Assembly: GCF_000813845.1 (NCBI RefSeq)
Contig: NZ_JWTB01000014.1
Coordinates: forward strand, 62,001-126,000
Reading direction: 5' to 3'
Length of the DNA: 64,000 nucleotides
Source: Pseudarthrobacter phenanthrenivorans
Lineage (GTDB): Bacteria > Actinomycetota > Actinomycetes > Actinomycetales > Micrococcaceae
The position numbers and the translations under genes are program-made. Every line of letters starts with the position of its first letter. Within the stretch, counting starts at the first letter, position 1. Shown one piece after another: positions 12,145 through 28,636 of this stretch. The notes under the pieces are model-generated. The model did no database searches, had not been told where the DNA came from, and saw only the letters and a list, made by a program, of their open reading frames with translations.

Positions 12145-12353
12145 GAGCCAAGAGAAACTGACAGGGGCCCTTAAACAGGCTGAGTGGGGGCGGTCCCCAA
12201 CGATCCGCCACCACTCATCCCCCCAATGTGTGCGAAGGCCCCCGGAGCTGCCCGCGTTCCAGAATTTATCCCCGTTCGAAAACGCTCGGCGGCCCCGCCT
12301 TCACACATTCATGATTGTTTCACATTCTAATGATTTTGTGAAAGCCGGAAAGG

Positions 12354-13106
12354 TTACTTTTCGGTAGATTTCCTGCGCGGTCCAACGGTCCTGCCATTAA
12401 CCACCTTGGCAACCCAGATCAGGGCCAGCCCAATGACGAAGCAGAGCACCGCCGTGTAGTTGATGATGAATTCGATGGATCCCATAGTGGGCGGGATAAC
12501 CGGAAAAAGTAGTGTGAGCCCAACGGCTACTCCGCCCAAAGCCAGCAGGGCCGCTGCGATGCGCACCAGGATGGGGAGCCGCTCCCGCACGGCCCGAACC
12601 ATGGAGGGCACCAGGACCAAGGTGACATAGGCGGGGTAGGCCCTGCCTGCGGCGCCATAATATTCGACGAGCGCGAAATTACGGTCGTCCTTCGCGGACA
12701 CGGCCTGGAGCCCCGCGGAGGATCCCTCCGTGTCCATGGAAAAGAACAGGGCGACCAATACGGCCGAGACTGCAAACAGGACGATTATGCCTGTCTTCCC
12801 CGTAATCAGGCGGTAGGCGCCGTCGGCACCAAATCCTTTGGCGATTCGGATGCCCATGAAGAAGATGGCACCGAAGATCACGAAGCGCAGCAGCAGGTTG
12901 GCGAGGTTAATTCCGCCCAGCGCCTGGTCGATCACCAGGTACGGGCCCTTGATGCTCAACAGGATCGCCAGTGTCATTGAAGCGAAGATGCCGAAAAGGG
13001 AGCGGTTCTCACCCCGGAGGGTGCTGGGGATCCGCGCGGCGGCAACCAACGCGCATATCGCCAGCGTGCTCCATTGAAGTGTCTCGATCATCCCAGGTTC
13101 TCCCAA
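12354..13106 (-). CDS. Multi-pass membrane protein of unknown function, possibly MAB_1171c-like
   Basis: 250 residues with about seven hydrophobic segments, beginning near TLAICALVAAARI and ending near YTAVLCFVIGLALIWVAKVV with a basic tail. The layout recalls the actinobacterial MAB_1171c-type putative transporters, which commonly sit next to HTH regulators; that family link is from memory. The start overlaps the upstream HTH gene by 19 bases, so the two are co-transcribed. No catalytic motif is visible. Confidence 0.7.
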   Translation of the reverse strand: MGEPGMIETLQWSTLAICALVAAARIPSTLRGENRSLFGIFASMTLAILLSIKGPYLVIDQALGGINLANLLLRFVIFGAIFFMGIRIAKGFGADGAYRLITGKTGIIVLFAVSAVLVALFFSMDTEGSSAGLQAVSAKDDRNFALVEYYGAAGRAYPAYVTLVLVPSMVRAVRERLPILVRIAAALLALGGVAVGLTLLFPVIPPTMGSIEFIINYTAVLCFVIGLALIWVAKVVNGRTVGPRRKSTEK

Positions 13107-13819
13107 ATCTTGTCTGTCTGCGCTTGGTCCTGCTCCTGGCGGCGCAGCACTTTGCCCATTGCCTGGAGCCGGTCTCCGGCAAGGGCGGTTAATTCTCCGT
13201 CGGAAAGGCTGTCCAGCGCGGCCTGCCGCGCACCGGGCGGCCAGCCGGCCTCCTCCTCCGTCACAACCCCCGTGGCCACCAGGCCGCCGGCCGGTCCCAC
13301 TCCCGCTGCCATCGCCGTTGCCACGGCCAGCTCGGGGGACAGCCGGTTGGCGGTCAACTGGGCGGAATAGTTCTGCGGGGCCACGCCGGTGGCTGTCGAC
13401 ACCCGGTGCCGGAGTTCGCCGTCATCAATTGCGTCCACCCAGTTCTTCACCGAGGTGGGGTGCGGGGCGAAACTGAGGGCTGGAGCGGCGCCGCCCTGTC
13501 CCGGTTCCATGGCAGGCCGGACCAGAAGTGCCCGGAGAAGGTCTGCGGTGGAAATCTGGCTCACCAACTCGTTCCTGGTGGGCGGCGGCGGCGGTCCTGC
13601 CAGGACGTTGAAGGCCTCGAACCCTGCCAACGCGGTGACCGGATTGATGTTGTAGGCGCGGCTGATGCTGACCACCGTGCTGACGGAGACCTTGCCCCGC
13701 ACCAGCTGCTGTGCCAGTGTGGTGCGCTTGATCCCGGAGACCCGGCAGACATCCGCGGTGCTGGCATCGGGCGCGATGCTTTGCAGCCAGCGCTGGAACG
13801 CCTTGGCGGGAATGGTCAT
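13088..13819 (-). CDS. Helix-turn-helix regulator paired with a membrane protein
   Basis: 243 residues. The N-terminal about 65 residues look like an XRE-type HTH (DVCRVSGIKRTTLAQQLVRG, then STVVSISRAYNINPVTALAG). The rest contains a Pro-rich stretch (PPPPPTRNELV) and a C-terminal helical region without recognised domain. It is the first gene of a two-gene unit with the membrane protein at 12354 and is divergent from the ABC-F gene, sharing a 250-base intergenic region. Confidence 0.72.
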   Translation of the reverse strand: MTIPAKAFQRWLQSIAPDASTADVCRVSGIKRTTLAQQLVRGKVSVSTVVSISRAYNINPVTALAGFEAFNVLAGPPPPPTRNELVSQISTADLLRALLVRPAMEPGQGGAAPALSFAPHPTSVKNWVDAIDDGELRHRVSTATGVAPQNYSAQLTANRLSPELAVATAMAAGVGPAGGLVATGVVTEEEAGWPPGARQAALDSLSDGELTALAGDRLQAMGKVLRRQEQDQAQTDKIWENLG

Positions 13820-13894
13820 GGGGGACTCTCTGCATAACGGGAGGGGTGTGACCGAGTTTACCGTGCCTGTCCGGCACCGGCCGTGCCGGCGATT

Positions 13895-13981
13895 TTGCCC
13901 GTGATGCAGGTTCGTCTATAGTTGATGGTCGAGCCCGTTGGTCCGTACACCCCCCAAGTCCGGACCAGCGGGTTCTTCTAT
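13895..13981 (+). promoter_or_regulatory. Promoter and terminator-like leader hairpin before the ABC-F gene
   Basis: TTGCCC at 13895-13900 and TATAGT at 13917-13922 (16-base spacer) form a plausible promoter. Directly downstream, positions 13932-13945 pair with 13961-13974 over 14 base pairs (two G-U), loop of 15 bases, followed by a U-rich stretch TTCTTCTAT. The hairpin lies about 100 bases before the chosen ABC-F start. Its position would suit transcription attenuation, as known for some antibiotic-induced ABC-F genes. Confidence 0.5.
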
Positions 13982-14069
13982 GTCCTGCAGCCCCAGCGGC
14001 GCCGCGGCCCTTCCTGCCGCCTCTGCCGGCCGTCAACGGCTGCCCGGGCAGCGGCGAAAGGACCAACCG

Positions 14070-15731
14070 ATGACTGCAACCCTCGTTGCCAAGGACCTCT
14101 CCGGCGGCCACGGCCACCGCACGCTATTTTCCGGGCTGTCGCTGACGGTGGCTCCCGGCGATGTGGTGGGCGTGGTGGGCGCCAACGGGGCCGGGAAGTC
14201 CACGCTGCTGCGCCTGCTCGCCGGCGTGGACCAGCCACAGCAGGGCTCGGTCAGCCTTGCCCCCTCGGACGCCTTTGTCGGCTGGCTGCCCCAGGAGCAC
14301 GAGCGCGTCCCCGGTGAGACAGTAGCCGCCTACATTGCGCGCCGGACCGGCTGCGCGGACGCAACCGCCGAGATGGAATCCACCGCTGAAGCGCTGGGCT
14401 CCGGGGCTCCGGGCGCTGACGATGCCTACTCCAGGGCCTTCGACCGCTGGATGGCCTCCGGCGCTGCCGACCTGGATGAACGCATCCCGGCCGTCCTCTC
14501 GGACCTTGGCCTGGACGCCGGCCCCGATGCGATGATGACCGGTCTCTCCGGCGGCCAGGCTGCCCGGGTGGCCCTCGCTGCGCTCCTGCTGAGCCGGTTC
14601 GACGTCGTACTGCTCGATGAGCCCACGAATGACCTCGACCTTGCCGGCCTGGCCACCTTGGAAAACTTTGTGCAGGGGCTGCGCGGCGGGGTGGTGCTGG
14701 TCAGCCATGACCGCGAATTCCTGGCCCGGTGCGTCACCCGCGTGGTGGAGCTGGACCTGGCCCAGAACAGCGTGGCGGTGTACGACGGCGGCTACGACGC
14801 CTTCCTGGAGGAGCGGGCCGTAGCCCGGCGGCATGCCCGCGAAAAGTTTGAGGAATTCGCGGCCACGAAGGCGGACCTGGTGTCCCGTGCCCGCACGCAG
14901 CGTGAATGGAGCTCCCAGGGCGTCCGGAACGCGATGAAGAAGAACCCGGATAACGACAAGATCCGGCGCGCCGCCAGTACCGAGTCGTCGGAGAAGCAGG
15001 CGCAGAAAGTCCGGCAGATGGAGTCCCGCATCGCCCGGCTGGATGTGGTGGAGGAGCCGCGGAAAGAGTGGCAGCTCCAGTTCACCATCGGCCAGGCACC
15101 GCGGTCCAGCGCCGTCGTCGCCACCTTGCGGAACGCCGTGGCACGGCAGGGTGCTTTCACGCTGGGACCGGTCAACCTCCAGCTCAACGGAGGCGAGCGG
15201 GTGGGCATCACCGGCCCGAACGGGGCCGGCAAGTCCACCCTGCTGCGCCTGCTGCTGGGCACCCAGGCGCCGGACGACGGCGACGCGTCCGTCGGGGCTT
15301 CGGTCGCCGTCGGCGAGATTGACCAGGCACGCGGGATGCTCGACGGCGGCCTGCCGCTGGGCGACGCGGTCGAGGCCGTGCTGGTGGACTGGACCGGCGC
15401 CGATGTCCGCACGCTCCTGGCGAAGTTCGGCCTCAAGGCGGACCACACGTCGCGGACCGTGGATTCCCTCTCGCCGGGGGAACGGACGCGGGCCGCCCTG
15501 GCCCTGCTCCAGGCGCGGGGCGTGAACCTGCTGGTGCTGGATGAGCCCACCAACCACCTCGACCTGCCGGCCATCGAGCAGCTGGAAGAAGCCCTGGAAA
15601 GCTACGATGGCGCCCTGCTGCTGGTCACCCACGACCGCCGCCTGCTGGAAAACGTCAGACTCGACTATCGGTGGCACTTGGACAACGGCACGGTCCAGGA
15701 ACTCCACCACACTGCAAGCCAGGAGAAGTAA
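14070..15731 (+). CDS. ABC-F family ATP-binding protein (ribosome-acting type)
   Basis: 553 residues; ATG at 14070 with GAAAGGA 8 bases upstream. There are two ATPase domains and no membrane segment: Walker A GANGAGKSTLLRLL and GPNGAGKSTLLRLL, signatures LSGGQAARVALAALL and LSPGERTRAALALL, and Walker B VVLLDEPTNDLDL and LLVLDEPTNHLDL. The linker between them is charged (about residues 245-330). ABC-F proteins bind the ribosome E site and act in translation or antibiotic protection. Only 2 bases separate it from the ABC exporter that follows. Confidence 0.92.
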   Translation: MTATLVAKDLSGGHGHRTLFSGLSLTVAPGDVVGVVGANGAGKSTLLRLLAGVDQPQQGSVSLAPSDAFVGWLPQEHERVPGETVAAYIARRTGCADATAEMESTAEALGSGAPGADDAYSRAFDRWMASGAADLDERIPAVLSDLGLDAGPDAMMTGLSGGQAARVALAALLLSRFDVVLLDEPTNDLDLAGLATLENFVQGLRGGVVLVSHDREFLARCVTRVVELDLAQNSVAVYDGGYDAFLEERAVARRHAREKFEEFAATKADLVSRARTQREWSSQGVRNAMKKNPDNDKIRRAASTESSEKQAQKVRQMESRIARLDVVEEPRKEWQLQFTIGQAPRSSAVVATLRNAVARQGAFTLGPVNLQLNGGERVGITGPNGAGKSTLLRLLLGTQAPDDGDASVGASVAVGEIDQARGMLDGGLPLGDAVEAVLVDWTGADVRTLLAKFGLKADHTSRTVDSLSPGERTRAALALLQARGVNLLVLDEPTNHLDLPAIEQLEEALESYDGALLLVTHDRRLLENVRLDYRWHLDNGTVQELHHTASQEK

Positions 15732-15733
15732 CC

Positions 15734-17647
15734 ATGAGCATGGACCGCGTGGCCTGGAGTTCGCTCTACAACATCAGCACCGCAAAGAGCGCCTCCAAGC
15801 CGTTTTCCAAAGAGACCCTGAAGCGGGTGCTGGCCTTCGCCGCACCGCACAAGGGCAAGCTGATCGCCTTCGTGCTGTCCTCCATTGCGGCTGCCTTCCT
15901 GGCCGTCGCCACTCCGGTGCTCGCCGGCCAGGTGGTTGATGCCATCATCGCCAAGGCTGCCGCCGGAACGGTCATCTGGCTGGCGGTGCTGATCGCCATC
16001 GTGGCCGTGGGCGAGGCCGGGGTGGGCCTGCTGACCCGCTGGCTCTCCTCCACCATTGGCGAAGGCGTCATCGTGGACCTGCGCACCCGCGTGTTCGACC
16101 ACGTCCAGCGCATGCCCATCGCCTTCTTCACCCGGACCCGCACCGGCGCGCTGGTCAGCCGGCTCAACAACGACGTCATCGGCGCGCAGTCCGCCTTCGC
16201 CGGAACCTTGTCCGGCGTGGTGAGCAACTCCGTGGCGCTGGCCCTGACACTGGCCGTGATGCTCAATACGTCCTGGCTGGTGACAGTCCTCGCCATGGTG
16301 CTGCTGCCGATTTTCCTGATTCCCGCCCGCCGCATGGGCTCGAAACTGGCAGACCTGCGCCGCGAAGCCGCCGCGCACAACGCTGCCATGGGAACCCAGA
16401 TGACCGAGCGGTTCTCGGCCCCGGGCGCCACGCTGGTCAAGCTGTTTGGCCGGCCGGACGAGGAATCCCGTGAATTTGCTGCCCGCGCGGGACGGGTCCG
16501 GGACATCGGCGTCCGGATGGCGATGCTGCAGTTCACCTTCGTGACCGCCCTGACGCTGGTGTCCGCGCTCGCGCTCGCCCTGGTCTATGGCCTGGGTGGC
16601 TGGCTCGCCCTGGGTGGCCAGCTCGCCCCGGGCGACGTGGTGGTCCTGGCGTTGCTGCTGACCCGGCTCTATGCCCCGCTCACGGCGCTGTCCAACGCCC
16701 GGGTTGAAGTCATGAGCGCGCTGGTCAGCTTCGAACGGGTCTTTGAAATCCTGGACCTGAAACCGCTCATCCAGCAGAAGCCTGATGCCGTGCCGGTCCC
16801 CGCCGGTCCGGTGTCCGTTGAGTTCGACAACGTCCGCTTCGCGTACCCGTCCGCGGACAAGGTATCGCTGGCGTCGCTCGAGGAGGTCTCCACCCTGGAC
16901 ACCCGGGGCGGCGAGGAAGTCCTCCACGGGGTCAGTTTCCGGGTGGAGCCTGGCCAGACCGTCGCCCTGGTGGGCTCTTCAGGGGCCGGCAAGTCCACCA
17001 TTGCACAGCTGCTGTCCCGGCTGTACGACGTCGACTCCGGCGCCGTGCGGCTGGGTGGCACCACCCCGGGGGCCGGGCTGGACGTACGGGACGCCACCTT
17101 CGATTCGCTGCGGGACACCCTGGGCATGGTGACCCAGGACGGCCACCTGTTCCACGAAACCATCGCCTCCAACCTGAGGCTGGCCCGGCCCGATGCCACC
17201 GAGGAGGACATGTGGGACGTCCTGCGCCAGGCGCGACTGGAAACCATGATCCGGTCGCTCCCCGACGGGCTGGAGACCGTGGTGGGGGAGCGCGGCTACC
17301 GGCTTTCCGGCGGTGAACGCCAGCGGTTGACCATCGCCCGGCTCCTGATTGCCCAGCCCCGCGTCGTCATCCTCGACGAGGCAACCGCCGCGCTGGACTC
17401 CACGAACGAAGCCGCTGTGCAGGCAGCCCTGGGCGCTGCGCTCGAGGGCCGGACCGCCGTCGTGATTGCGCACCGGCTTTCCACCGTCCGTGCCGCCGAC
17501 GCCATCCTGGTGGTGGAGGACGGCCGGATCGTGGAGCGCGGAACCCACACCGAACTCCTGGCCGCGGGAGGCCGCTACGCCGAGCTTTACCGGACGCAGT
17601 TTGCCGAGGCCACCGCGGTGGCGGAGGAAGCCGTTCCGGAGTTCTAG
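15734..17647 (+). CDS. ABC exporter, fused permease and ATPase (ABCB type)
   Basis: 637 residues; ATG at 15734, two bases after the ABC-F stop. The N-terminal about 330 residues have six membrane segments (for example LIAFVLSSIAAAFLAVATPV and VIWLAVLIAIVAVGEAGVGL). The C-terminal ATPase has Walker A GSSGAGKSTIAQLL, signature LSGGERQRLTIARLL, Walker B VVILDEATAALD and the H-loop VIAHRLSTVR. It is a half-transporter expected to homodimerise and export a drug, lipid or peptide. Its C-terminus overlaps the convergent NUDIX stop by four bases. Confidence 0.92.
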   Translation: MSMDRVAWSSLYNISTAKSASKPFSKETLKRVLAFAAPHKGKLIAFVLSSIAAAFLAVATPVLAGQVVDAIIAKAAAGTVIWLAVLIAIVAVGEAGVGLLTRWLSSTIGEGVIVDLRTRVFDHVQRMPIAFFTRTRTGALVSRLNNDVIGAQSAFAGTLSGVVSNSVALALTLAVMLNTSWLVTVLAMVLLPIFLIPARRMGSKLADLRREAAAHNAAMGTQMTERFSAPGATLVKLFGRPDEESREFAARAGRVRDIGVRMAMLQFTFVTALTLVSALALALVYGLGGWLALGGQLAPGDVVVLALLLTRLYAPLTALSNARVEVMSALVSFERVFEILDLKPLIQQKPDAVPVPAGPVSVEFDNVRFAYPSADKVSLASLEEVSTLDTRGGEEVLHGVSFRVEPGQTVALVGSSGAGKSTIAQLLSRLYDVDSGAVRLGGTTPGAGLDVRDATFDSLRDTLGMVTQDGHLFHETIASNLRLARPDATEEDMWDVLRQARLETMIRSLPDGLETVVGERGYRLSGGERQRLTIARLLIAQPRVVILDEATAALDSTNEAAVQAALGAALEGRTAVVIAHRLSTVRAADAILVVEDGRIVERGTHTELLAAGGRYAELYRTQFAEATAVAEEAVPEF

Positions 17648-18075
17648 GGTCCGGACTGCGTGGCCTGTGCCGCCAGCAGAGGCAGGATGTGGTCCGTCAG
17701 CAGCGGGGCGAGGTCCCGGGGGAGGGGCGAACCCTTGGCCGGCCCGCTGAAGTCCAGCCAGCGGATCTCGGCGATTTCGGCCGCCGGGGTGGCCTGCCAC
17801 GTCCCCGGGGCGGTGAAGACGGTGGCTTCAATATCGGTGGCCGCCTCGTTCGCGGCGTCGGCGATCCAGACTCCCAGCAGTTCAAGCTCCTGGGGCCTGA
17901 CCACGATGCCCACCTCTTCGGCGAGTTCCCGGGCGGCGGCCTGGACGGCCGTTTCGCCGGGCTCGGGCTTGCCGCCCGGGTGCATGAACATGTCGGTGCC
18001 GCGTTTGCGCACGGTCAGAAGCCGACCGGCATCATCGAACACGCAGACGGCGGAGACCACGATCCGGTCCCTCAT
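17644..18075 (-). CDS. NUDIX hydrolase
   Basis: 143 residues from ATG at 18075. The full Nudix box GX5EX7REUXEEXGU is present as GKPEPGETAVQAAARELAEE followed by VGI (about residues 36-58). The family cleaves nucleoside diphosphates linked to another moiety; substrate unknown. The start overlaps the upstream DUF6314 stop as ATGA, so translation is coupled. Longer in-frame starts upstream exist but lie inside the DUF6314 gene. Confidence 0.9.
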   Translation of the reverse strand: MRDRIVVSAVCVFDDAGRLLTVRKRGTDMFMHPGGKPEPGETAVQAAARELAEEVGIVVRPQELELLGVWIADAANEAATDIEATVFTAPGTWQATPAAEIAEIRWLDFSGPAKGSPLPRDLAPLLTDHILPLLAAQATQSGP

Positions 18076-18548
18076 CCGGCCATCCTCGCCAGGTGGGATG
18101 TGAGCAGCAGGTCTTTGCGCGGGCCGGTCACGTCCCAGCTGTAGCTGAAAGCGTCCGGGCCCTCCCACAGGTAGGACACCCGGTAGGTGTCGGGGTCGCA
18201 CCAGTGGGCGTCCCGGCTGGCGTCCGGGGTGAAACCCATGCGGTGGAACGGCCTGCCGTCGGGAAAGAACACGTCCAGCGCATCCGGCCGTACCGCGGGT
18301 TTCAGGAGGTAGTCACGTGAGGCGGGTCCGGTGAAGGTAGGCCAGCGCATGGTGCCTTCCTCATGAAGGGTCAGGCCGCCGTCGTCCGTGGGGGTGAAAA
18401 GCACGACGCCGGTAAAGGCCCCGCGCGTGCCGTCCGACCTGTCCAGCAGGTTGCGCTCCACCCGCCAGCGGCCCGCGGGCAACGGCTGCCCGGCGTTGCT
18501 GCCCAGGAGGTAGTCGCGGAGGCTGGGCTCCGGCAAAGGAGAGTTCAA
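18072..18548 (-). CDS. DUF6314 family protein
   Basis: 158 residues. It contains GRWRVERNLLDR, GEVLFTPTDD-like sequence (GVVLFTPTDDGGL), and the C-terminal WCDPDTYRVSYLWEGPDAFS and VTGPRKDLLLTSHL. This is the DUF6314 fold, a small soluble beta-rich protein of unknown function. It is the first gene of a two-gene unit with NUDIX; the tRNA-Arg gene lies immediately upstream on the same strand. Confidence 0.8.
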   Translation of the reverse strand: MNSPLPEPSLRDYLLGSNAGQPLPAGRWRVERNLLDRSDGTRGAFTGVVLFTPTDDGGLTLHEEGTMRWPTFTGPASRDYLLKPAVRPDALDVFFPDGRPFHRMGFTPDASRDAHWCDPDTYRVSYLWEGPDAFSYSWDVTGPRKDLLLTSHLARMAG

Positions 18549-18549
18549 G

Positions 18550-18622
18550 TGCCCTCGATTGGAATCGAACCAACGACACCGGCTTTAGGAGAGCCGTGCT
18601 CTATCCACTGAGCTACGAGGGC
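18550..18622 (-). tRNA. tRNA-Arg (anticodon CCU)
   Basis: The reverse complement folds as a tRNA: acceptor GCCCTCG/CGAGGGC, D arm GCTCAGTGGATAGAGC, anticodon stem CGGCT/AGCCG with loop CTCCTAA (anticodon CCT), and T arm TTGGTTCGATTCCAA. The discriminator base is A and no CCA is encoded. It reads AGG codons. No integrase or repeated tRNA 3' end was seen, so it does not mark an integrated element here. Confidence 0.96.
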
Positions 18623-18705
18623 TGGCATCCGGGGGTTCGGCGGGGCCGGTCCGTCCGGACACGGTTACAAGCATACAAGGTACCGGCGCGTACTACGCTC
18701 AAGGC

Positions 18706-19497
18706 ATGAGTCCAGCCCCAACTGCCACTCCCGCCGCAGCCTTCATCCCGAACGTTGCGTCCACCCGGCAGTACATCGGCGCCTGGGCGGTGCTGAGCGT
18801 GCTGCAGTACTTCTTTGCGGAGGCCGCCGTGGCGATGGCCTGGGCCGGACCCCGTCCCTATGACCTGCGGACCGGATACATCAGTGACCTGGGCGCGTTG
18901 AGTTGTGGAATCTATGCCGGCCGGGAGGTGTGCTCGCCGCTCAACTGGCTGATGAACGCATCGTTCGTGGTCCAGGGCCTCGGGCTGCTGCTGGGGGCGG
19001 TGCTGCTGACCTCCGGGCTGCTGCGCGTGGCGGGCCGGCCCGGGACGCGCGTGGACTGGGGCCGCAGGAAACCGTGGATCGCGGCGACTGCGGTCCGGCT
19101 GCTCACAGGCGTTGCGGGGGCCGGAACGGTGGTGGTGGGACTGGTCCCTGAGGATGTCGGCTCGCCGTGGCATTACGCGGGCGCCGTAGCGTATTTCCTC
19201 ACCGGTGGCGCTGCCCTGCTGGTGCTTGGGCTGCTCTGGCTCCGGAAAACGGGAATGGCGTGGTTCCTCCTTGCCTGCGGCAGTGTGTCGCTGGCCGCGC
19301 TTGCCACCGGTGGCCTGACGCACATGATGGTTCCCGAGCCTGGCACCCTGGAACGGCTGATGGGTTATCCGGTCACCGTGGGAATGGCTGCCGCCGGGCT
19401 GGTCATTGCCAGCCGGGTGCACCGGCACCGGAAGCAGGTGAGGGCTGCGGCCCGCGCTGTTGCCCTGGCCGTCCACAATGGAGCTTCCCGCAGATAG
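18706..19497 (+). CDS. DUF998 domain membrane protein
   Basis: 263 residues with about six membrane segments (for example NASFVVQGLGLLLGAVLLTSG, GVAGAGTVVVGLVPED, and WFLLACGSVSLAALATGG). The sequence YISDLGALSCGIYAG near residue 50 and LVPEDVGSPWHYAGAV are characteristic of the DUF998 family, whose function is unknown. It sits alone, divergent from the tRNA gene. Confidence 0.83.
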   Translation: MSPAPTATPAAAFIPNVASTRQYIGAWAVLSVLQYFFAEAAVAMAWAGPRPYDLRTGYISDLGALSCGIYAGREVCSPLNWLMNASFVVQGLGLLLGAVLLTSGLLRVAGRPGTRVDWGRRKPWIAATAVRLLTGVAGAGTVVVGLVPEDVGSPWHYAGAVAYFLTGGAALLVLGLLWLRKTGMAWFLLACGSVSLAALATGGLTHMMVPEPGTLERLMGYPVTVGMAAAGLVIASRVHRHRKQVRAAARAVALAVHNGASRR

Positions 19498-19696
19498 GCC
19501 CCAATGGTCGCCAGCTGGATGGCTTTGCGATTCTTGACCATAAATTGAGCCCTTTTCAGCCCTCGGCCGGCTGGGTTGAGGCCTAGGCTTGCGCCATGTC
19601 GATGCCGTCTGCGGCCTCGCCGGTGGGGGACCGGTCCCAGCACCGTCGTTTGGCTGGCTCCACTCCTTCAGCACCTGCGCGTCCCGGGGCGCTTCC

Positions 19697-21055
19697 ATGA
19701 GTACCTACCTGGCGGAATCAACGCTTCGGGAGTCCGACGGCGGGAGCCGGCTTCTGCTCGAATCTGCACTGGGAGCCACCCCGAACGGTTTGGTGCAGAA
19801 TCCGAGTTTCTTCCGCGGATTTGCTGCCCGTCCGGACGTGGTGGCGAACGCCCTTCTTGCCGTGGCAGACGTCGCGGCGTCGAGGTACTTCGATGCGGCC
19901 TTCCGCCTCAGCGACGTCCTGGACCCAGTCATGACAGCCGGCGGAGACCGGCTGCGGTGCGAATCGTTCTCTGCCTGCAACGGTGTCTATGCGCGGCTCG
20001 ACCTCCTGGAGGCAGGCCTTGACGGGGGCGAGATTGGCTTCGGAACAACCAACGTGGACATCAACAGTGCCCTGCGGTCTGCACTGGCGAACGTCCACAG
20101 GAACGAGCTGCTGCACCTGGCTGTGGGCCGTGATGGGCTGCTGGTTTCCACCCCGGCAGAGAGCCACCTGGAGCGGAAAGTCGAACTCCCGGACCGGTGG
20201 GTGAGGGGTTTCGCCGAGACCCCCGGCATCGCTGCGGGAATGTCCCACTTGGCCACCATGGGCGGACCTGCCATGGCCCAGTTTCTGTCGTCTCTTCCGG
20301 CAGCGCGGCCGGGCCGCACACTTGTATTGCTGCCATCTGCACGAGGGTTCCGTGAAGTGACAACGGCAAGGCCGCACTCAGTAACCTTGGCCGGGACCGG
20401 ACGGCTGGCTGCGGCACGACGTGTCGCACGGTTTGCCACCCGCGTGGACATCTTCAAGCATGGCAGCGGTTCCAGTGCCTGGGTGTTCCAACTGCCCGGA
20501 GCCAACTTCACGCTGCTGCTTTCTCCTGCCGCGGCGCGGGGCTTTTCCGGGGAAGGCGGGATCCCCGAGTCGCTTGCGGCGCCCGGGGCGGAGGCTGACG
20601 GGCAGACTGTGCTGAAGTTCCTGTCATGGCACTCCGTTGTTTCCGCCGGTGAGCTCCAGGCGAAGACAGGGTTGGCTGCGCCCCGGATTAACCATGGACT
20701 TGCCTATTTGGGCGCCTCCGGCAAAGTCGGATTCGATCTGTATGAGGGGGAGTACTTCCACCGGGAACTGCCGCTGGACCGGAAACGCACTGTGAAGGAC
20801 TACCCAAGGCTTGCGGCTGCCCGCAGCGTCCTTGCCGGCGGAGGCGTGGTACGCAGGGAGCACTGGTGGGAAGTCCGCAGTACTGCAGGAACCTATGCGT
20901 ACCGGATCAGCGGGTCTGACGGGTCCTATCGGTGTACGTGTCCCTGGTGGATGGACAACCGGGGGTCCAGGGGACCCTGCAAACACGTGCTGGCCGTCCG
21001 GCTGCACCTGCTGGACGCTGGCGGGAACCGGGAGGGTGATCTCTATGGCGATTGA
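19697..21055 (+). CDS. SWIM zinc-finger domain protein
   Basis: About 452 residues from ATG at 19697; a TTG 108 bases upstream in frame is an alternative. The bulk (residues 1-400) is uncharacterised. Near the C-terminus (about 413-435) is a SWIM finger: YRCTCPWWMDN with CxC, then PCKHVLAVRLHLL with CxH. SWIM domains bind zinc and are thought to bind DNA or protein. The stop overlaps the following large gene by 11 bases, so the two form a unit. The pairing recalls uncharacterised actinobacterial SWIM operons. Confidence 0.85.
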   Translation: MSTYLAESTLRESDGGSRLLLESALGATPNGLVQNPSFFRGFAARPDVVANALLAVADVAASRYFDAAFRLSDVLDPVMTAGGDRLRCESFSACNGVYARLDLLEAGLDGGEIGFGTTNVDINSALRSALANVHRNELLHLAVGRDGLLVSTPAESHLERKVELPDRWVRGFAETPGIAAGMSHLATMGGPAMAQFLSSLPAARPGRTLVLLPSARGFREVTTARPHSVTLAGTGRLAAARRVARFATRVDIFKHGSGSSAWVFQLPGANFTLLLSPAAARGFSGEGGIPESLAAPGAEADGQTVLKFLSWHSVVSAGELQAKTGLAAPRINHGLAYLGASGKVGFDLYEGEYFHRELPLDRKRTVKDYPRLAAARSVLAGGGVVRREHWWEVRSTAGTYAYRISGSDGSYRCTCPWWMDNRGSRGPCKHVLAVRLHLLDAGGNREGDLYGD

Positions 21056-23717
21056 GGAGCGCGCCGATCCGACAGCAGTGCAGGTCATCCGGCGGCTTGT
21101 CACACAGGATGACCGGAAAGCGGTGCCGGAGTACATCAGGAACCTTACTTCGTCCGATCTGAAGGAAGCCACCGCCTGGTTTGCAAAAAGCGGCCGCACC
21201 CTCCTTCGGGATGATACGGACTACCGCTCCGTGGGCAACATAACCATGGAGAACCTTTACGCCAACCTCAGCATCAGGGACGTGGTCACGGTTATGGCCA
21301 GTTCTCCGCGAAATGCTGCGCGGCTCCTGCCCTGGCGAAGTCTGGCTTCGAGCAAGAGCCAAGCTGTCCTGCTGCTGGTCGATGCCATGGTGGCGAAGGG
21401 CGAAGCATGGTGCCGGGAATTTGTGGCAGCAGCGATCGTCCGGAATGCAACAGCGGAACGGGAGACGGCCGCCGCCGTCATCCGCCATTGCCTGCCGCTA
21501 ATTCTCCATTTCAATATCCCCACCATGGATTTGGAGGCATATCCCCGCCTGTGGGCTTTTTATTATGGCTGCCTCCGGCAGGTCCACGAGGTTTGGGACG
21601 AGGATGCTGCCCGGACGTACGAATATCCCAGCTGGGGAGGGCTCCAATTCCGTATCGGTCCGGCAGGATGCTGCGAGGTTCTGCCACGTACCCAGACACA
21701 GCTCATGGACCTTTTCGACCTCGATGACACTGCACCCGACGCCTTGATTCGCTGTTTCGACACTGCCGACGCGCTCGCCCCTTTGAAGGATTCCGGGGTT
21801 GGCGCCGCCCTTTGTGGCTATGTGCAAAGGGGAACGCTGACCCGCGCCGACGTACTTTGCCGCGTTGAAACGGCCCTGTCACGCTGCGACGGAACCCCCA
21901 ACCAACGCCTGCTGGCCGAAGTCCTGAACGCCTTGAAACCGACGCAGGAAGAAACAGGCAGGATCATCCCCCTCCTGCTCTCGGTGGTGGCAACGGCGCC
22001 CGGATTCATGTCTTTCCTGGCGTTGGAACTCCTCTTGGGGGCCCCGATGAGCGGAAGTGACCTGCAGGAACTCAGCAGCGCAGTGTTTGCAAGAAGCGAG
22101 AAGAAGCCGCAGGTATTTTTGGTCCGGCATCTAAAGGCACTCCAGCCAGCCGAAGGTTGCGACGGCGTTCTGCGGATGTGCTGGGAGGCCGCAGCCGGAT
22201 CCGCTGACCTCAAAATCCGGTCAATGGCGGAAAAGGTGCTGGGTGTTCCCGCCATTGTCATCCGGGAAGACCCACTTTCAGGGCAGTCGCTGTGGGCTCC
22301 GGATACGGTGGAGCAGCCGTTCATTCCACCGTACGTGGCGCCCGAGGTGAACCTTGAATTCCCGCTTCCCTGGTGGGACCGGCATTCACGGCACACGGTG
22401 GTTGAGGAGCAGTACCTGGACCGGTTCCTTCGTTCGGCCTTTCATGCTCCCCGGGAAGTACGCGAGTGGTACGGTCGCCGTCATCCGCTGACCGACCCGC
22501 AATTCGTGGGCCCTGCCCCGCGGCTGCCGGATCAACTCGCATACCCGGACCCGGAAACTGTTGTGAAGCTGTGGGCGTCAAATGGGTGGGACGTGGCCGC
22601 TCATCATTTTCTTACCGCCAAAGTGCGAAGTGCGCGCTCCGGGCCTTTCGACCCGTTTGACTGGTTCTCCCGTCTCGACGCCCTCTCCGCAATCCGCGTC
22701 TTCCGCCATAGCGAATTGGCCCTCCAGGCCGGCAGCGTCCCGTATTCCCTCGCTACGCCCAGCTACTCCGATTTCCGCGTCGACCTGGGCCGACTGGTGT
22801 CGGTGCTCAATCTCTATGCGCGCGAAGGTTGGCAGTACGGGGAAGCGGACTTCTTCCAGGCACTCCTGCGTCTGGGGCCAACGGACGGGGAACTGGCATC
22901 GAGCCTTCCCGACATCCCAGTGGGCCCCCTCGGCGGCGCCGACAACCCGGAACGGCAGGCCGGAAGAATACTCCGGGATTGGGTCGCAGGAGGCGGCTTT
23001 ACGCCTCCGGCCGTGAACAAAGCACTGGTCCTGCCAGTTCCGCTGGACCGGTTCCCGTCCCTTCCCCAGGAGCTGCTGTCACCAGACCTATGGGGCGGCG
23101 GTGGCAAGGAGTGGCCACGGGGCAGTTGGCTGGAGGTCGCCACCATCGTGCCCTTCTGGCCGGACCTGGGCGCCGTCTGGCACCGCGAACGGGCAGTCCA
23201 CGACGGGCTGGTATGCCGGCGTAATGGGGAACTGGCAGGCGCAACCGCTGGTGGAATCGGTCTCTGGACCCACGAGTGGCTGATTACGCAACTCGCTGCC
23301 AGCGAGCCGACAGATGCCGTTGGCACTGCACTGGAGCTGGCGAAGAGGGGACTGCTGCTCGCAGACCAGCTGGCCCAGGCGGCCCGAAACCAGTTGAATG
23401 TCGGCGGGCTCGCCGTGGGGCGGCTTACCCGCAACCTGGCGTTGGTGGCGTACGAAGGGCATCTGGACAGGGTTTGGCCCGCGCTGACTGCCTTGGCCGA
23501 GGTTGCCGCAGCACGGCCACGGCTGCCTGCCGGTACCGACGAGCTCTTGGCCACCTGCACTGAGTTGTGGGCAGCAATTCCACGCGGGCAGAGGACACCG
23601 GCAAACGTGCCGGCGGAATTTGTTGCCGCCGTGCTGAAGGTGGCGGGATCTAAAAGCGGAACGAAAAGCGCGCTGGAAGCGAAACGGCTCGCAGCGGACA
23701 TGGGGATCAACGCTTAG
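21045..23717 (+). CDS. Large uncharacterised protein translated with the SWIM protein (DUF6493-like)
   Basis: 890 residues; ATG at 21045 with GGAGGG 8 bases upstream, inside the end of the SWIM gene. No membrane segment or nucleotide-binding motif is visible. The N-terminal half is helical and HEAT-like in appearance (many Leu/Ala-rich helices, for example AYPRLWAFYYGCLRQVHEVW). The C-terminal third (DLGRLVSVLNLYAREGWQY, then GGIGLWTHEWLITQLAASEP) resembles DUF6493-type proteins that accompany SWIM proteins; that name is from memory. Function unknown. Confidence 0.7.
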   Translation: MAIEERADPTAVQVIRRLVTQDDRKAVPEYIRNLTSSDLKEATAWFAKSGRTLLRDDTDYRSVGNITMENLYANLSIRDVVTVMASSPRNAARLLPWRSLASSKSQAVLLLVDAMVAKGEAWCREFVAAAIVRNATAERETAAAVIRHCLPLILHFNIPTMDLEAYPRLWAFYYGCLRQVHEVWDEDAARTYEYPSWGGLQFRIGPAGCCEVLPRTQTQLMDLFDLDDTAPDALIRCFDTADALAPLKDSGVGAALCGYVQRGTLTRADVLCRVETALSRCDGTPNQRLLAEVLNALKPTQEETGRIIPLLLSVVATAPGFMSFLALELLLGAPMSGSDLQELSSAVFARSEKKPQVFLVRHLKALQPAEGCDGVLRMCWEAAAGSADLKIRSMAEKVLGVPAIVIREDPLSGQSLWAPDTVEQPFIPPYVAPEVNLEFPLPWWDRHSRHTVVEEQYLDRFLRSAFHAPREVREWYGRRHPLTDPQFVGPAPRLPDQLAYPDPETVVKLWASNGWDVAAHHFLTAKVRSARSGPFDPFDWFSRLDALSAIRVFRHSELALQAGSVPYSLATPSYSDFRVDLGRLVSVLNLYAREGWQYGEADFFQALLRLGPTDGELASSLPDIPVGPLGGADNPERQAGRILRDWVAGGGFTPPAVNKALVLPVPLDRFPSLPQELLSPDLWGGGGKEWPRGSWLEVATIVPFWPDLGAVWHRERAVHDGLVCRRNGELAGATAGGIGLWTHEWLITQLAASEPTDAVGTALELAKRGLLLADQLAQAARNQLNVGGLAVGRLTRNLALVAYEGHLDRVWPALTALAEVAAARPRLPAGTDELLATCTELWAAIPRGQRTPANVPAEFVAAVLKVAGSKSGTKSALEAKRLAADMGINA

Positions 23718-23741
23718 CAGTGCCGCCCGGGGAACTGCGGC

Positions 23742-24368
23742 TTAGTGGTCTTTCCGCGTCCGCCTGTTGAGGAGAACTACTGCAGCTCCGGCCAGCAGGC
23801 TCAGCACCAGAAGCACCCAGCCTGCGATGGTGAGGCCGGACGCCATAGCCACCTGGCCGGCGTCGGGACCTTGCGTGCCCAGCATGGCATCAATGGCCAC
23901 ATTGCCCCACAGCCGAACCACCACGAACAGCAGGGGCAACGCCCAAAGCGCCCAGCGCAGTGCCTTCCGCGCAACGTTGGTGCCGATGAGCAGAAGCCAG
24001 GTGAAGCCGAAGATCAGCGGGAACAGGGTCCCGGCGGTCTTGTGGACATAGTTCAGCTGGCCCAGCGCATCGCTGTTCATCACGTCCTGCAGCCGGCTGA
24101 TGTAGGCGGGATCGAAGCCGCCCACCAGCGAATCCGGCATGGCCAGTCCTTGGGTGAGTTGCGTGAGCTGGTCCAACGTCAGCAGGTGCAGGTACCAGAA
24201 GAGGAACAGGCTGGCCACGACGCCGGCGATGACGATCAGGTTGCTGTTGCCCTGCGCCTTTTCCGGCGTGCGCTCCGTGCTGGGGTTGACCACCGGCGGC
24301 AGGTGATGCTGGGGCACCACCGCGTTGGCGCCGTGTTTCTTGATCCGCTGGGCAGGGGTTTTGGCCAT
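23742..24368 (-). CDS. Four-pass membrane protein of unknown function
   Basis: 208 residues from ATG at 24368 (MAKTPAQRIKKHG); longer starts upstream are less likely because they run into the divergent promoter region. Hydrophobic segments are near LIVIAGVVASLFLFWYLHLL, TLFPLIFGFTWLLLIG, WALWALPLLFVVVRLWG and GWVLLVLSLLAGAAVVLL. The N-terminus is basic. No family was recognised. It ends 24 bases from the convergent large gene and starts 32 bases from the divergent phosphatase. Confidence 0.7.
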   Translation of the reverse strand: MAKTPAQRIKKHGANAVVPQHHLPPVVNPSTERTPEKAQGNSNLIVIAGVVASLFLFWYLHLLTLDQLTQLTQGLAMPDSLVGGFDPAYISRLQDVMNSDALGQLNYVHKTAGTLFPLIFGFTWLLLIGTNVARKALRWALWALPLLFVVVRLWGNVAIDAMLGTQGPDAGQVAMASGLTIAGWVLLVLSLLAGAAVVLLNRRTRKDH

Positions 24369-24400
24369 GGCACCATTATCCCGCCCCATAAACTGAAGCC

Positions 24401-25231
24401 ATGACCACTGGCCGACACAGCGCAGCTGTTCTTGACCCATCCCTGGACGACTACGAACTGGCGGCGGCCCTGGTCCGTGAAGCCGGGCAGCTGGCGCTCC
24501 TCATGCGCATGGCCGGCCTGCAGTCTGAACAGAAGACGTCAGTCTCAGACGTCGTGACCGCGGCGGACCACGCAGCCGAGGCCTACGTGCTGGAGCAGCT
24601 GCAGCGCTGCCGGCCGGAAGACGGCATCCTGGGGGAGGAAGGGACCGCCGTCCAAGGCGCCAGCGGCCGCACCTGGGTCATCGACCCCGTGGATGGCACC
24701 TACAACTTCCTGCACGGCTCAACCTACTGGTGCTCCGCGATCGCCCTCAAGGACCGCGACGATGTGATGTTGGGTGCCATCTTCCAGCCCGAGGAGGACA
24801 AGCTGTGGCTGGGCGGCCGCGACCGGCGGGCCACCCTGAACGGGGATGTCCTGACCGTATTCAGCGACGACGGCGGCAGGCGTAACGGCACCAGCGTCGC
24901 CGAGCTTGGTGCGGCCACCTACATCCACCCCACCTGGCTGATGGACCCCCTGTGCGCCATGCCGTGGCATGCGGCGGCCACATCCGCAGCCTCCCTTCGC
25001 ATGCTTGGGTCCGGTTCGTGCGATTTGGGCCGGGTGGCGGACGGGCAGCTGGGGTGCTGGTTCCAGCACAGCTGCCCGGAATGGGACTGGCTGCCGGGCA
25101 AGGCGATCGTCCGGGCGGCAGGCGGCGCCGTGGACACGGTCCGGGTGAACGGGCTGGAGTGGTTCCTGGCAGGAGGTACGACGGCGGTGCGCCAGTTGCG
25201 TGCCGCCCTTGAGTCAGCGTCAGTGGCCTAG
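24401..25231 (+). CDS. Inositol-monophosphatase-family phosphatase (possibly histidinol-phosphatase)
   Basis: 276 residues. The lithium-sensitive phosphatase motifs are present: DVVTAADHAAE, ILGEEG, WVIDPVDGTYNF and the C-terminal CPEWDWLPGKAIVRAAGG. The family dephosphorylates myo-inositol phosphate, histidinol phosphate, PAP or fructose bisphosphate. The sequence alone does not decide among these. It stands apart from the iol locus, so inositol catabolism is not implied. Confidence 0.88.
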   Translation: MTTGRHSAAVLDPSLDDYELAAALVREAGQLALLMRMAGLQSEQKTSVSDVVTAADHAAEAYVLEQLQRCRPEDGILGEEGTAVQGASGRTWVIDPVDGTYNFLHGSTYWCSAIALKDRDDVMLGAIFQPEEDKLWLGGRDRRATLNGDVLTVFSDDGGRRNGTSVAELGAATYIHPTWLMDPLCAMPWHAAATSAASLRMLGSGSCDLGRVADGQLGCWFQHSCPEWDWLPGKAIVRAAGGAVDTVRVNGLEWFLAGGTTAVRQLRAALESASVA

Positions 25232-25341
25232 GCATTTCGCTGCCCTGACATGGGCGCTTACGGTTTTGGCCGGTGGATAAGGGCTGGTAATCCACAGGCT
25301 GGAAGGCGTTGTCGGTCCCACCGCCTAGACTTGTAGGCACC

Positions 25342-27834
25342 ATGGATATGTTGTTTGACCCGTACTCTGACGGACCCTTCAAGGCCGCTCCTGCAGCCAC
25401 TGCCCGTACCAAGTCGCCGTCAGAAGGCGTTGTGGGGGCACCTGGCAGTGGCGGCCACGTCCACGCAGAGCGGGCACCGGAAGGGCAACACCGGAGCCAC
25501 CGCCCGGACGCCAAGGCCCTGCTGCAGGGGTTGAACCCGCAGCAGGAGGAAGCGGTCAAGCACGCAGGTTCGGCACTGCTGATCGTCGCCGGCGCCGGCT
25601 CCGGCAAGACCCGCGTGCTCAGCAACAGGATCGCGTACCTGATCGCCACCGGCCGCGCCCACCATGGCGAGATCCTGGCCATCACCTTCACCAACAAAGC
25701 CGCGGCGGAGATGCGGGAGCGCATCGAGGCCCTGGTGGGCGGCCGCGCCAAAATCATGTGGATTTCCACGTTCCACTCGTCCTGCGTGCGGATCCTTAGG
25801 CAGGAAGCCGCGAACGTAGGGCTGAAGTCCAACTTCTCCATCTACGACTCCGCCGACTCCCTGCGCCTGGTCACCCAGGTCTCCAAAGCCCTGGACCTGG
25901 ACCCCAAGAAGTTCGCACCCAAGGCCATCCAACACAAGATTTCGGCGCTGAAGAACGAACTCATCGACGCGGACTCCTTCGCCTCGGCCGCAAATTACAA
26001 CGACCCCTTCGAGCAGGCCGTAGCGGACGTGTACAAGGGGTACACGCAGCGACTCCGCCAAGCCAACGCCATGGATTTCGACGACCTCATCGCTGAGACC
26101 GTCTACATGTTCCGGGCTTTCCCCGCGCTCGCCGAGTCCTACCGGCGCCGGTTCCGCCACGTCCTGGTGGACGAATACCAGGACACCAACCACGCCCAGT
26201 ACGCGCTGGTCCGCGAGATAGTCGGCGAAGGCCCCGGCGCCTCTGAACTCACCGTGGTGGGTGATTCGGACCAGTCCATCTATGCCTTCCGCGGCGCAGA
26301 CATCCGGAACATCGTCGAGTTCGAAAAGGACTACCCCGAAGCCCGCACCATCAAGCTGGAGCAGAACTACCGCTCAACGCAGAACATCCTCAATGCCGCC
26401 AACTCGGTGATCTCGCGCAACCCCAACCGGCCGGAAAAGCGGCTGTGGACCGCCGAGGGCGAAGGCCACAAGATCATTGGCTACGTGGGCGAAAACGAGC
26501 ACGACGAGGCGCAGTTCATCGCCAAGGAGATCGACCGGCTCCAGGACGAGGAGAACCTTCGGCCGGGCGACGTCGCCATCTTCTACCGCACCAACGCCCA
26601 GTCCCGCTCCATCGAAGACGTTTTGGTCCGCGTCGGCCTGCCGTACAAGGTGGTTGGCGGAACACGCTTCTACGAGCGCAAGGAAATCAAGGACGCCCTC
26701 GCCTACCTCCGCGTCCTGGTGAACCCGGACGACGACGTCAACCTGCGCCGCGTCCTGAACGAGCCCAAGCGTGGCATCGGCGACAGGGCAGAAGGGGCCG
26801 TCGCCGCGCTGGCGGAGCGGGAGCGGACGTCCTTCATGGCAGCTGCACGCCGCGCCGACCAGGCACCCGGCATGGCCACCCGGTCGGTCAACGCCGTCCT
26901 GGGCTTCGTGAAGATGCTGGACGACCTCGCCGAAGTGGCTGCCGGGTCCGGCGCCGCCGCCGCGCTCGAAGCCGTCCTGGAACAGACCGGCTACCTCGCT
27001 GCGCTTCGCTCCAGCACCGACCCGCAGGACGAGTCCCGGGTGGAGAACCTGGCCGAACTGGTGGCCGTGGTTCGTGAATACGAGCAGGAAAACCCGGAAG
27101 GCACACTGGCCGCGTTCCTGGAACAGGTATCCCTCGTGGCCGACGCCGACCAGATCCCCGACGCCCCCGGCGCCGACATTGACGCCGCCGTGGCCGAGGC
27201 CAAGCGGCTCGGCGTGGTGACGCTGATGACCCTGCATACGGCCAAGGGCCTGGAGTTCCCGGTCGTGTTCCTTACCGGCATGGAGCACGGACTCTTCCCA
27301 CACCAGCGCTCCGCCACCGACCCCAAGGAACTGGCCGAGGAACGCCGGCTGGCCTATGTGGGCCTCACCCGCGCCCGCAAGCGGCTTTACGTCACACGGT
27401 CCGAGGTCCGCAGCATGTGGGGCCAAAGCCAGTACAACCCCGCCAGCCAGTTCCTGGAGGAGATTCCCGCCGAGCTCCTGGAATGGAAGCGCGAAGGGAC
27501 CAGCCGCCAGTCGTGGGCAGGCGGCGGCTCCATCGGATCCGGCCGCTACAGCGGCTCGTTCTGGGGCGCCGGAACTGCCCGGGGCGCTGCGGCGGACTCC
27601 TCCGCCGGCTTCAACGCCGACGTCCCTGCATTCATCGCCAAGAACCGGGTGCAGCCGCAAAAGGAAATCATCGCCGTCAGCGTGGGGGACAAGGTCAACC
27701 ACACAAGCTTCGGCAACGGAACAGTCCTGGCGCTTGAAGGGGCCGGCGACAAGACCGTGGCAAAGGTCAAATTCGACGTCGGCGAGAAACGCCTGCTGCT
27801 GCGCTACGCCCCGCTGACCAAGCTGGACGCCTGA
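25342..27834 (+). CDS. pcrA: ATP-dependent DNA helicase PcrA/UvrD
   Basis: 830 residues; ATG at 25342. It is a superfamily 1A 3'-5' helicase with motif I AGAGSGKTRVLSNRIAYL (about 83-100), motif II VLVDEYQDTNHAQ, motif III DSDQSIYAFRGAD, motif IV EQNYRST, motif V TLHTAKGLEFPVVF and motif VI YVGLTRARKRLYVT. The first 70 residues are a poorly conserved extension. The C-terminal about 60 residues form the Tudor-like region (GDKVNHTSFGNGTVLAL). It acts in nucleotide excision repair and clearing of replication obstacles. Confidence 0.95.
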   Translation: MDMLFDPYSDGPFKAAPAATARTKSPSEGVVGAPGSGGHVHAERAPEGQHRSHRPDAKALLQGLNPQQEEAVKHAGSALLIVAGAGSGKTRVLSNRIAYLIATGRAHHGEILAITFTNKAAAEMRERIEALVGGRAKIMWISTFHSSCVRILRQEAANVGLKSNFSIYDSADSLRLVTQVSKALDLDPKKFAPKAIQHKISALKNELIDADSFASAANYNDPFEQAVADVYKGYTQRLRQANAMDFDDLIAETVYMFRAFPALAESYRRRFRHVLVDEYQDTNHAQYALVREIVGEGPGASELTVVGDSDQSIYAFRGADIRNIVEFEKDYPEARTIKLEQNYRSTQNILNAANSVISRNPNRPEKRLWTAEGEGHKIIGYVGENEHDEAQFIAKEIDRLQDEENLRPGDVAIFYRTNAQSRSIEDVLVRVGLPYKVVGGTRFYERKEIKDALAYLRVLVNPDDDVNLRRVLNEPKRGIGDRAEGAVAALAERERTSFMAAARRADQAPGMATRSVNAVLGFVKMLDDLAEVAAGSGAAAALEAVLEQTGYLAALRSSTDPQDESRVENLAELVAVVREYEQENPEGTLAAFLEQVSLVADADQIPDAPGADIDAAVAEAKRLGVVTLMTLHTAKGLEFPVVFLTGMEHGLFPHQRSATDPKELAEERRLAYVGLTRARKRLYVTRSEVRSMWGQSQYNPASQFLEEIPAELLEWKREGTSRQSWAGGGSIGSGRYSGSFWGAGTARGAAADSSAGFNADVPAFIAKNRVQPQKEIIAVSVGDKVNHTSFGNGTVLALEGAGDKTVAKVKFDVGEKRLLLRYAPLTKLDA

Positions 27835-27916
27835 GCCCGCCGCCCCGGTTCCCCCGCTTCGGCACGGTGCGGTGCGGAGCCGCAAGGTGCGGTGGCGGGG
27901 GAGCGGCAAAGGCATA

Positions 27917-28636
27917 ATGGACGCCATGCGACGGACTGTACGGGGGATGCTCGCCGCCCTTTTCCTTGCCACCATGGTTTCCACCGCCACAGGGTGCAGC
28001 GTGACCACTGCGGACCCCTCCTACATCCCGCCCGATCCGCCCCAGCCCATGGAGCAACTGGAAAAGGCTCCCCTCGCCGAGGCCAAGGCGTTCTCCAGCG
28101 GCACCGGCGTCCTCTCCTTCATCACCCAGGACCGGGCCATCGCGTGCTCCCTGACGTCCGCCCGGGGCGACCACGTGGACCTGCCCTATGAACAGAACAG
28201 CTACGGCGACGCCGCCAACAACAAGCTGCCCATCGTTCCGGTGGCCCACTGCGAACTCGCCACCTACCCGGCGCCCCGGCCGGGGGACGTCACGGACGAC
28301 TGCGCCGGAACCCACCTTGGCTACCTGGGCGGCACCGCGCTGCTCTCGCCCGACACGGCACACTACGGAGGATGCCGCTCCGGCGTCACAAGCATGGAGG
28401 CAGCCTACGGACCGCGGGGCACCAAGGCCGGTCCCCTTGCGGAGCTGCCGGTCCTCATGGACGGGCAAAACCTCGAACGCAACGGTCTGCGATGCTCCGC
28501 CTACAACGGCGGTGTGGCGTGCGGAAACGTCTCGGCCGGCGTCGGATTCTTCATCTCTCCGGAACGTTACGAACTGATCCCGGGCGCGGCCAAAAGCAGC
28601 CCGCCACCGCAGCCGGAGGCGCCAAAAACCCCGTAA
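27917..28636 (+). CDS. Putative secreted lipoprotein
   Basis: About 239 residues. The N-terminus MDAMRRTVRGMLAALFLATM leads to a lipobox ending TATGC at the predicted lipidated Cys near residue 30. The mature part has several Cys and a beta-rich appearance (VLSFITQDRAIACSLTSARG and NGGVACGNVSAGVGFF). No family recognised. The start could also be the ATG at 27926. It follows pcrA in the same direction but after an 82-base gap, so it may have its own promoter. Confidence 0.75.
   Translation: MDAMRRTVRGMLAALFLATMVSTATGCSVTTADPSYIPPDPPQPMEQLEKAPLAEAKAFSSGTGVLSFITQDRAIACSLTSARGDHVDLPYEQNSYGDAANNKLPIVPVAHCELATYPAPRPGDVTDDCAGTHLGYLGGTALLSPDTAHYGGCRSGVTSMEAAYGPRGTKAGPLAELPVLMDGQNLERNGLRCSAYNGGVACGNVSAGVGFFISPERYELIPGAAKSSPPPQPEAPKTP

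Follow-up and report, generated by a model that had tools for sequence, protein, structure and literature searches.

Type XIII retrons combine a reverse transcriptase (RT; model RT_XIII) with a SWIM zinc-finger protein (SWIM_XIII) and a large WGR_XIII/HEAT-ARM_XIII protein, and the type is said to originate from a 2020 retron classification in Nucleic Acids Research. Here, a pair of overlapping genes encoding a 452-residue SWIM zinc-finger protein and an 890-residue partner was analyzed in a 64,000-nucleotide stretch of Pseudarthrobacter phenanthrenivorans (contig NZ_JWTB01000014.1, positions 62,001 to 126,000; hereafter, the window). Like a type XIII retron, the pair places a homologous SWIM protein beside a large partner of helical-repeat type (so named by the PADLOC models in the retron, and predicted in the window). 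In contrast, it has no RT, no noncoding RNA (ncRNA) was found with it, and its partner is of the DUF6493 type, without a match to WGR_XIII or HEAT-ARM_XIII.

A different kinship had been proposed in the initial annotation of this DNA, namely with SWIM-containing conflict systems that carry MoxR ATPase and vWA genes. These systems share with the pair a large partner and a possible conflict role; they differ in that no MoxR or vWA gene occurs among the ten window neighbors of the pair (9112 to 30026; Pfam, E 1e-5), an absence the annotation had itself recorded. The proposed link found no support. Of the relatives that carry a name, the type XIII retron SWIM protein is the closest, and the word "SWIM" does not appear in the main text of the 2020 eLife paper on conflict systems (PMC7159879). 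A type XIII retron called by PADLOC is mentioned in PMC11953036. No paper on the pair, on DUF6493, or joining a retron with a SWIM domain was found in the literature searched, which excludes most subscription papers. The pair is a relative of a known retron module without the retron.

Relation to type XIII retrons

The 452-residue protein matches the PADLOC model SWIM_XIII (PDLC02972) with an E-value of 7e-45, which places it by sequence in the SWIM family of type XIII retrons. The SWIM protein of a Methylobacterium bullatum retron scores 4.8e-213 on the same model, making the window protein a distant member, and the two are 29% identical over residues 64 to 435. In the M. bullatum plasmid NZ_LR743510.1 (locus L131, 4393-11421), a record without gene annotation, a 1080-residue protein (WGR_XIII, E 1.5e-251; also HEAT-ARM_XIII), the SWIM protein, and an RT (RT_XIII, E 6.6e-176) lie in a row, and the gap of about 320 bases between the SWIM and RT genes holds a long inverted repeat recognized by eye. 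According to the same PADLOC models, this locus is a complete type XIII retron. The SWIM_XIII model also matches many SWIM proteins without a neighboring RT.

The window pair is among those lacking this context. No match to the RT family RVT_1 was found in the whole window genome (83 contigs), and in 12 other carrier genomes (two noncarriers in the same search being set aside) RTs occur in three, on other contigs or far from the pair. Among 50 named carrier genomes, 22 contain RVT_1, with none in the fetched flanks of the pair, a check that covers 50 of the 80 named loci and includes contigs ending within 10 kb of the pair. In 20 of these 22 genomes the RT contigs differ in length from the contig of the pair, and in the other two (L061 and L058) the RT is on the same contig at distances of about 44 kb and 1.4 Mb, respectively. 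A local profile of six RTs, applied to 98 loci (L035-L132, some fetched twice and two of them noncarriers), recovered only the RT of the M. bullatum retron, itself in the profile; its sensitivity is low, as five of the six RTs used singly missed even that one. Because RVT_1 is missing from the window genome and RTs elsewhere in carriers are remote, the pair is judged, on these searches, not to travel with an RT. Likewise, an Rfam scan of positions 12000-28000 gave only a tRNA and a subthreshold match on its opposite strand, although not every retron ncRNA is in Rfam, and the leader upstream of the pair is poorly conserved and folds no better than shuffled sequences (z +1.6).

Predicted clamp fold of the SWIM protein

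The surprising part of the pair is the predicted fold of the SWIM protein, modeled with AlphaFold2 from 36 sequences (predicted local distance difference test [pLDDT], 83.9; predicted template modeling score [pTM], 0.83). In a Foldseek comparison with the PDB, all 50 matches listed are PCNA or 9-1-1 clamps (best E 1.5e-9), and they are clamps in both structure programs used, the second of which only re-ranks the Foldseek matches. With that second aligner, residues 39-278 superpose on Sulfolobus PCNA (Z 18.7; root-mean-square deviation, 2.9; 212 residues; 11% identity). Most named matches among predicted viral structures are also PCNAs or other processivity clamps, and the order of strands and helices, assigned by eye, is compatible with a pair of clamp domains connected by a linker containing the highly conserved motif LPDRWxRGFAE. 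Thus, residues 37-279 are predicted to form a complete two-domain PCNA sliding-clamp fold, followed toward the C terminus by a winged helix and then the SWIM finger. This claim is made at the level of fold, from prediction for the window protein only; by homology, the retron SWIM protein presumably shares the fold.

In resembling PCNA and 9-1-1 clamps through this predicted two-domain fold, the protein departs from them in three respects: it has no sequence match to them, it is fused to a winged helix and a SWIM finger, and it is missing from most relatives. A search of PDB sequences with the family profile (hmmsearch) found no sequence link to known clamps, the best match having an E-value of 0.52 and not being a clamp, and a sequence search of the PDB gave nothing convincing for either protein of the pair. 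PHROGs gave no match for the four proteins searched. Bacterial replication uses a three-domain beta clamp, and the window genome has its own (PF00712). The four helices assigned by eye to the inner face of the predicted clamp carry a mean net charge of about +3 per protomer, and the conserved basic residues of that face are R127, R236, R242, and R245, with none in the first and third helix.

The C-terminal SWIM finger reported in the initial annotation is borne out by a match to Pfam PF04434 at residues 410-434, which lies barely above the Pfam threshold (E 4.6e-4; 20.1 bits versus a cutoff of 19.6). The zinc ligands of the CxC(n)CxH pattern are present as C413, C415, C428, and H430; in a 36-sequence alignment that includes the window protein, the first two are invariant, and the last two are each kept in at least 90% of sequences.

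Partner protein, conserved pairing, and distribution

The 890-residue partner (P0002) has no match in Pfam, NCBIfam, or PADLOC at E-values up to 10, so that the profile search of this protein proposed in the initial annotation yielded a family link only through profile-profile comparison. The models DUF6493, DUF7824, and DUF7825 match neither P0002 nor its genus orthologues in L035 and L039, whereas more distant partners (L040, L043, L044, L045, L129, L130, and L132) each match at least one of them. When P0002 and five genus orthologues were aligned with the other Actinomycetota partners, hhalign gave a probability of 99.3 over 710 columns (E 3e-20). Because this profile aligns to partners that carry DUF6493, DUF7824, or DUF7825 matches, the window partner is classified by profile similarity as a divergent member of that family (PF20103, with PF25148 and PF25149 for DUF7824 and DUF7825). 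In agreement, plasmid records name DUF6493 proteins beside SWIM proteins, the public annotation of the two being "SWIM zinc finger family protein" and "DUF6493 family protein," without function. No match to WGR_XIII or HEAT-ARM_XIII was obtained with PADLOC in P0002, in six further partners, or in two more.

The HEAT-like character noted earlier for this protein agrees with its model, an almost all-helical, long alpha-solenoid (pLDDT 85.1; pTM 0.57). A fold search returned generic solenoids only (Z at most 9.6), which may reflect merely a common arrangement; among the weak matches are FANCD2/FANCI and Scc2, the cohesin loader. In all 496 comparisons across 32 loci, conservation is lower for the partner than for the SWIM protein, with a median identity of 0.22 versus 0.47. 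When it was divided into ten equal stretches, residues 535-623 (window positions 22647-22913) were the most conserved, with E557, P572, and D602 near-invariant and R609 invariant, making this stretch a candidate interface or active site.

Both open reading frames were confirmed as open, on the same strand, and overlapping by 11 bases. Within the window's genus, 6 of the 198 genomes carry the pair, a count that excludes 13 weak hits (E 2.8e-5 to 8.8e-4, about 100 residues; at the two loci viewed, the stretches read by eye like an acyl-CoA ligase), and the other five carriers have the same gene order. Among 396 Actinomycetota genomes, both genes occur in the same eight. This count requires a SWIM_XIII protein extending beyond the bare finger and drops three partial hits: two of ten SWIM_XIII genomes (G250 and G467), where frames of 1100-1208 residues match only the end of the profile (407-504), and one partner hit (G470) of about 70 residues at E 5e-4. 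A genome whose SWIM gene is frameshifted or badly assembled (G238) is counted as a carrier.

The same holds among named relatives, the best 80 of at least 566 in genome contigs and therefore leaning to close ones: a partner is present at all 80 loci, after the SWIM gene in 67 and before it in 13. Since the partner profile contains no sequence from the reverse-order loci, the partners at those loci are independent finds. Some partners are imperfect, one being a fragment about 1.4 kb away (L058), one in two pieces (L115), and three cut by a contig end (L068, L085, and L107). A start codon permitting a 4-base overlap is available in 71 of the 80, under a rule that picks the start nearest that overlap. 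On a tree of 41 SWIM proteins, gene order changed at least three times, even when only starred branches are counted. Because the five other genus carriers keep both genes in the same order and all 80 of the best relatives are paired, the pair is more than chance; that the genes stay together and mostly overlap through changes of order speaks for a joint function. The tight coupling seen in the window is thereby matched by conserved pairing in other genomes, a check named in the initial annotation, and it stands, as does the HEAT-like solenoid as a prediction; the MoxR/vWA link is not supported, and the predicted clamp fold and the retron link had been overlooked. One locus of a Phycicoccus metagenome-assembled genome (L059, 2523-11269) has a four-gene row, SWIM-partner-partner-SWIM, whose SWIM proteins fall in separate regions of the tree.

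Coordinates of the gene pair, its parts, and its surroundings in the window
Feature	Position	Strand	Description
SWIM-family gene	19697..21055	+	ATG start; 452 residues; predicted PCNA-like clamp domain at residues 37-279, winged helix at about 288-356, SWIM zinc finger at about 384-440
Predicted clamp-fold domain, coding part	19805..20533	+	Residues 37-279
SWIM finger match, coding part	20924..20998	+	Residues 410-434, CxC...CxH
Large partner gene	21045..23717	+	ATG start; 890 residues; divergent DUF6493/DUF7824/DUF7825-type protein, predicted alpha-solenoid
Overlap of both genes	21045..21055	+	11 bases
Inserted segment relative to empty sites	19445..23719		Left homology boundary at 19430-19455 and right boundary at 23717-23782 in ten relatives
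Leader upstream of the pair	19498..19696		No Rfam family; no unusual folding

Ten relatives from the genus that lack the pair have its flanks (to about 19440 and from about 23720) adjoining, with a gap of at most about 0.1 kb in nine of them and one of about 0.7 kb in L148. Because the flanks adjoin in these relatives, either the pair and its leader are a 4.3-kb insertion, placed where two convergent genes meet at their 3' ends, or the other genomes have cleanly lost the segment. This segment does not reach the tRNA-Arg (CCT) gene at 18549-18622, which is about 0.8 kb away from its left edge. There is no sign in the window of an island with an integrase, the segment consisting of the two genes and the leader only. 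The same inositol-phosphatase-like gene is found close to the pair in all six genus carriers, though not always on the same side; the EAL/GGDEF, DUF7793, and TPR-type genes that adjoin the pair in L036, L037, and L039 look unrelated. A housekeeping role in the genus was rejected, given that only 6 of 198 genomes carry the pair.

Beyond the genus, SWIM_XIII matches occur in 69 of 199 Streptomyces genomes, and the SWIM protein is matched in 9 of 72,556 plasmid records, including the M. bullatum retron and one 11.8-Mb record. In one plasmid copy (L129, 4774-14313, Diaphorobacter plasmid NZ_CP049906.1), an integrase gene directly precedes the SWIM gene and two DUF6493 genes, with VapC and antitoxin genes nearby. 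Two proteobacterial plasmid copies, one beside an integrase gene, are placed among actinobacterial SWIM proteins on the tree; one of the two has a long branch and an odd composition.

Proposed function and alternatives

Kinship with retrons, patchy presence, compact insertion, and a fast-evolving partner together suggest an immune role, and the tentatively favored explanation is that the pair, related to the accessory module of type XIII retrons but free of the retron itself, serves DNA surveillance against phages or plasmids. Its predicted anatomy supports DNA engagement by the SWIM protein, all three modules of which are of DNA-binding type, and a scaffold-like nature of the partner. In this model, DNA or a replication structure characteristic of invaders would be bound by the clamp-like domain (perhaps as a ring) together with the winged helix/SWIM part, while the fast-evolving solenoid would bind the SWIM protein and either keep it quiet or relay a signal; the complex may then halt replication or growth. 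The counterpart of this SWIM protein in type XIII retrons would be held by a complex of RT and multicopy single-stranded DNA (msDNA), and the window pair would act without that lock.

Several observations weigh against this surveillance role. The link to retrons would run through the SWIM protein alone, the partner family aligning with the WGR/HEAT-ARM protein of the one retron sequence compared at an hhalign probability of 0.2. No catalytic domain was recognized in the partner, leaving the effector step unsupported, and the would-be ring-lining helices are only mildly positive. No copy was found in 50,697 phage records, and viral contigs contained no confirmed relative of the window's SWIM family; they contained none of the retron's SWIM either, and 46 viral contigs with related RTs had no match to SWIM, partner, or WGR. 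A defense-island setting is not supported, as the neighbors are ordinary. In a scan of 138 of 148 neighbor proteins (18 loci, 17 of them non-Streptomyces), PADLOC at E 1e-15 matched isolated neighbors only (three PDC-S11 models, C3a206, mad3, and PDC-S41, one protein each), and the 25 of 118 Pfam families of neighbors that were viewed are mostly metabolic and regulatory, with one nSTAND1 and one Schlafen-type helicase among them. Up to 41 of 59 Streptomyces loci have common flanking gene families, which looks like vertical inheritance with loss. To our knowledge, no phage or plasmid phenotype has been described for the pair.

Because ordinary neighborhoods and common Streptomyces flanks weigh against immunity, surveillance is held no more firmly than as a tentative preference, and a role in DNA repair or replication, possible though on balance unlikely, is retained as its chief competitor. 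Here the clamp-SWIM protein would act as a clamp of the 9-1-1 or recombination-mediator type, with the HEAT protein as its scaffold, providing damage tolerance in some strains and having no role against phages. SWIM proteins act in recombination as members of the Shu complex, 9-1-1 subunits are among the clamp-fold matches, and the ordinary chromosomal neighbors and shared Streptomyces flanks fit such a role, as do the FANCD2/FANCI and Scc2 matches of the solenoid, but these last are too weak to carry function. The presence of the pair in so few genomes of the genus, the fast evolution of the partner, and the use of the nearest named SWIM family members in retrons also argue against repair. 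An improbable alternative is a toxin-antitoxin-like or addiction pair, in which one protein restrains the other and the genes are kept for their own maintenance. It would agree with overlapping genes that occur together wherever found, with their compact insertion between convergent genes, and with the plasmid copies; however, both proteins are far larger than usual toxins or antitoxins, no toxic fold was recognized, and gene order is not fixed. Slightly less probable still is that the pair is what remains of a type XIII retron after loss of the RT and ncRNA, for although SWIM_XIII homology is what such a remnant would retain, the RT-free form is widespread and conserved, the partner belongs to a different family from that of the retron, the branch leading to the single retron sequence in the tree is very long (5.5 changes per column), and the leader has no ncRNA features.

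The surveillance role can be extended to a more speculative and rather doubtful proposal, namely that the pair is a stand-alone immune system in which a PCNA-fold clamp, equipped with a winged helix and SWIM finger, surveys DNA and uses a HEAT-like solenoid for signaling, and that type XIII retrons originated once a clamp-SWIM protein of this kind had been placed under RT and msDNA control. A SWIM_XIII match alone should not be called a retron. The analysis offers a concrete predicted structure for the SWIM accessory protein found in type XIII retrons, and, if the proposal is true, a two-domain PCNA-type clamp fused to DNA-binding modules and working outside replication with a solenoid partner would be a new way in which bacteria read DNA.

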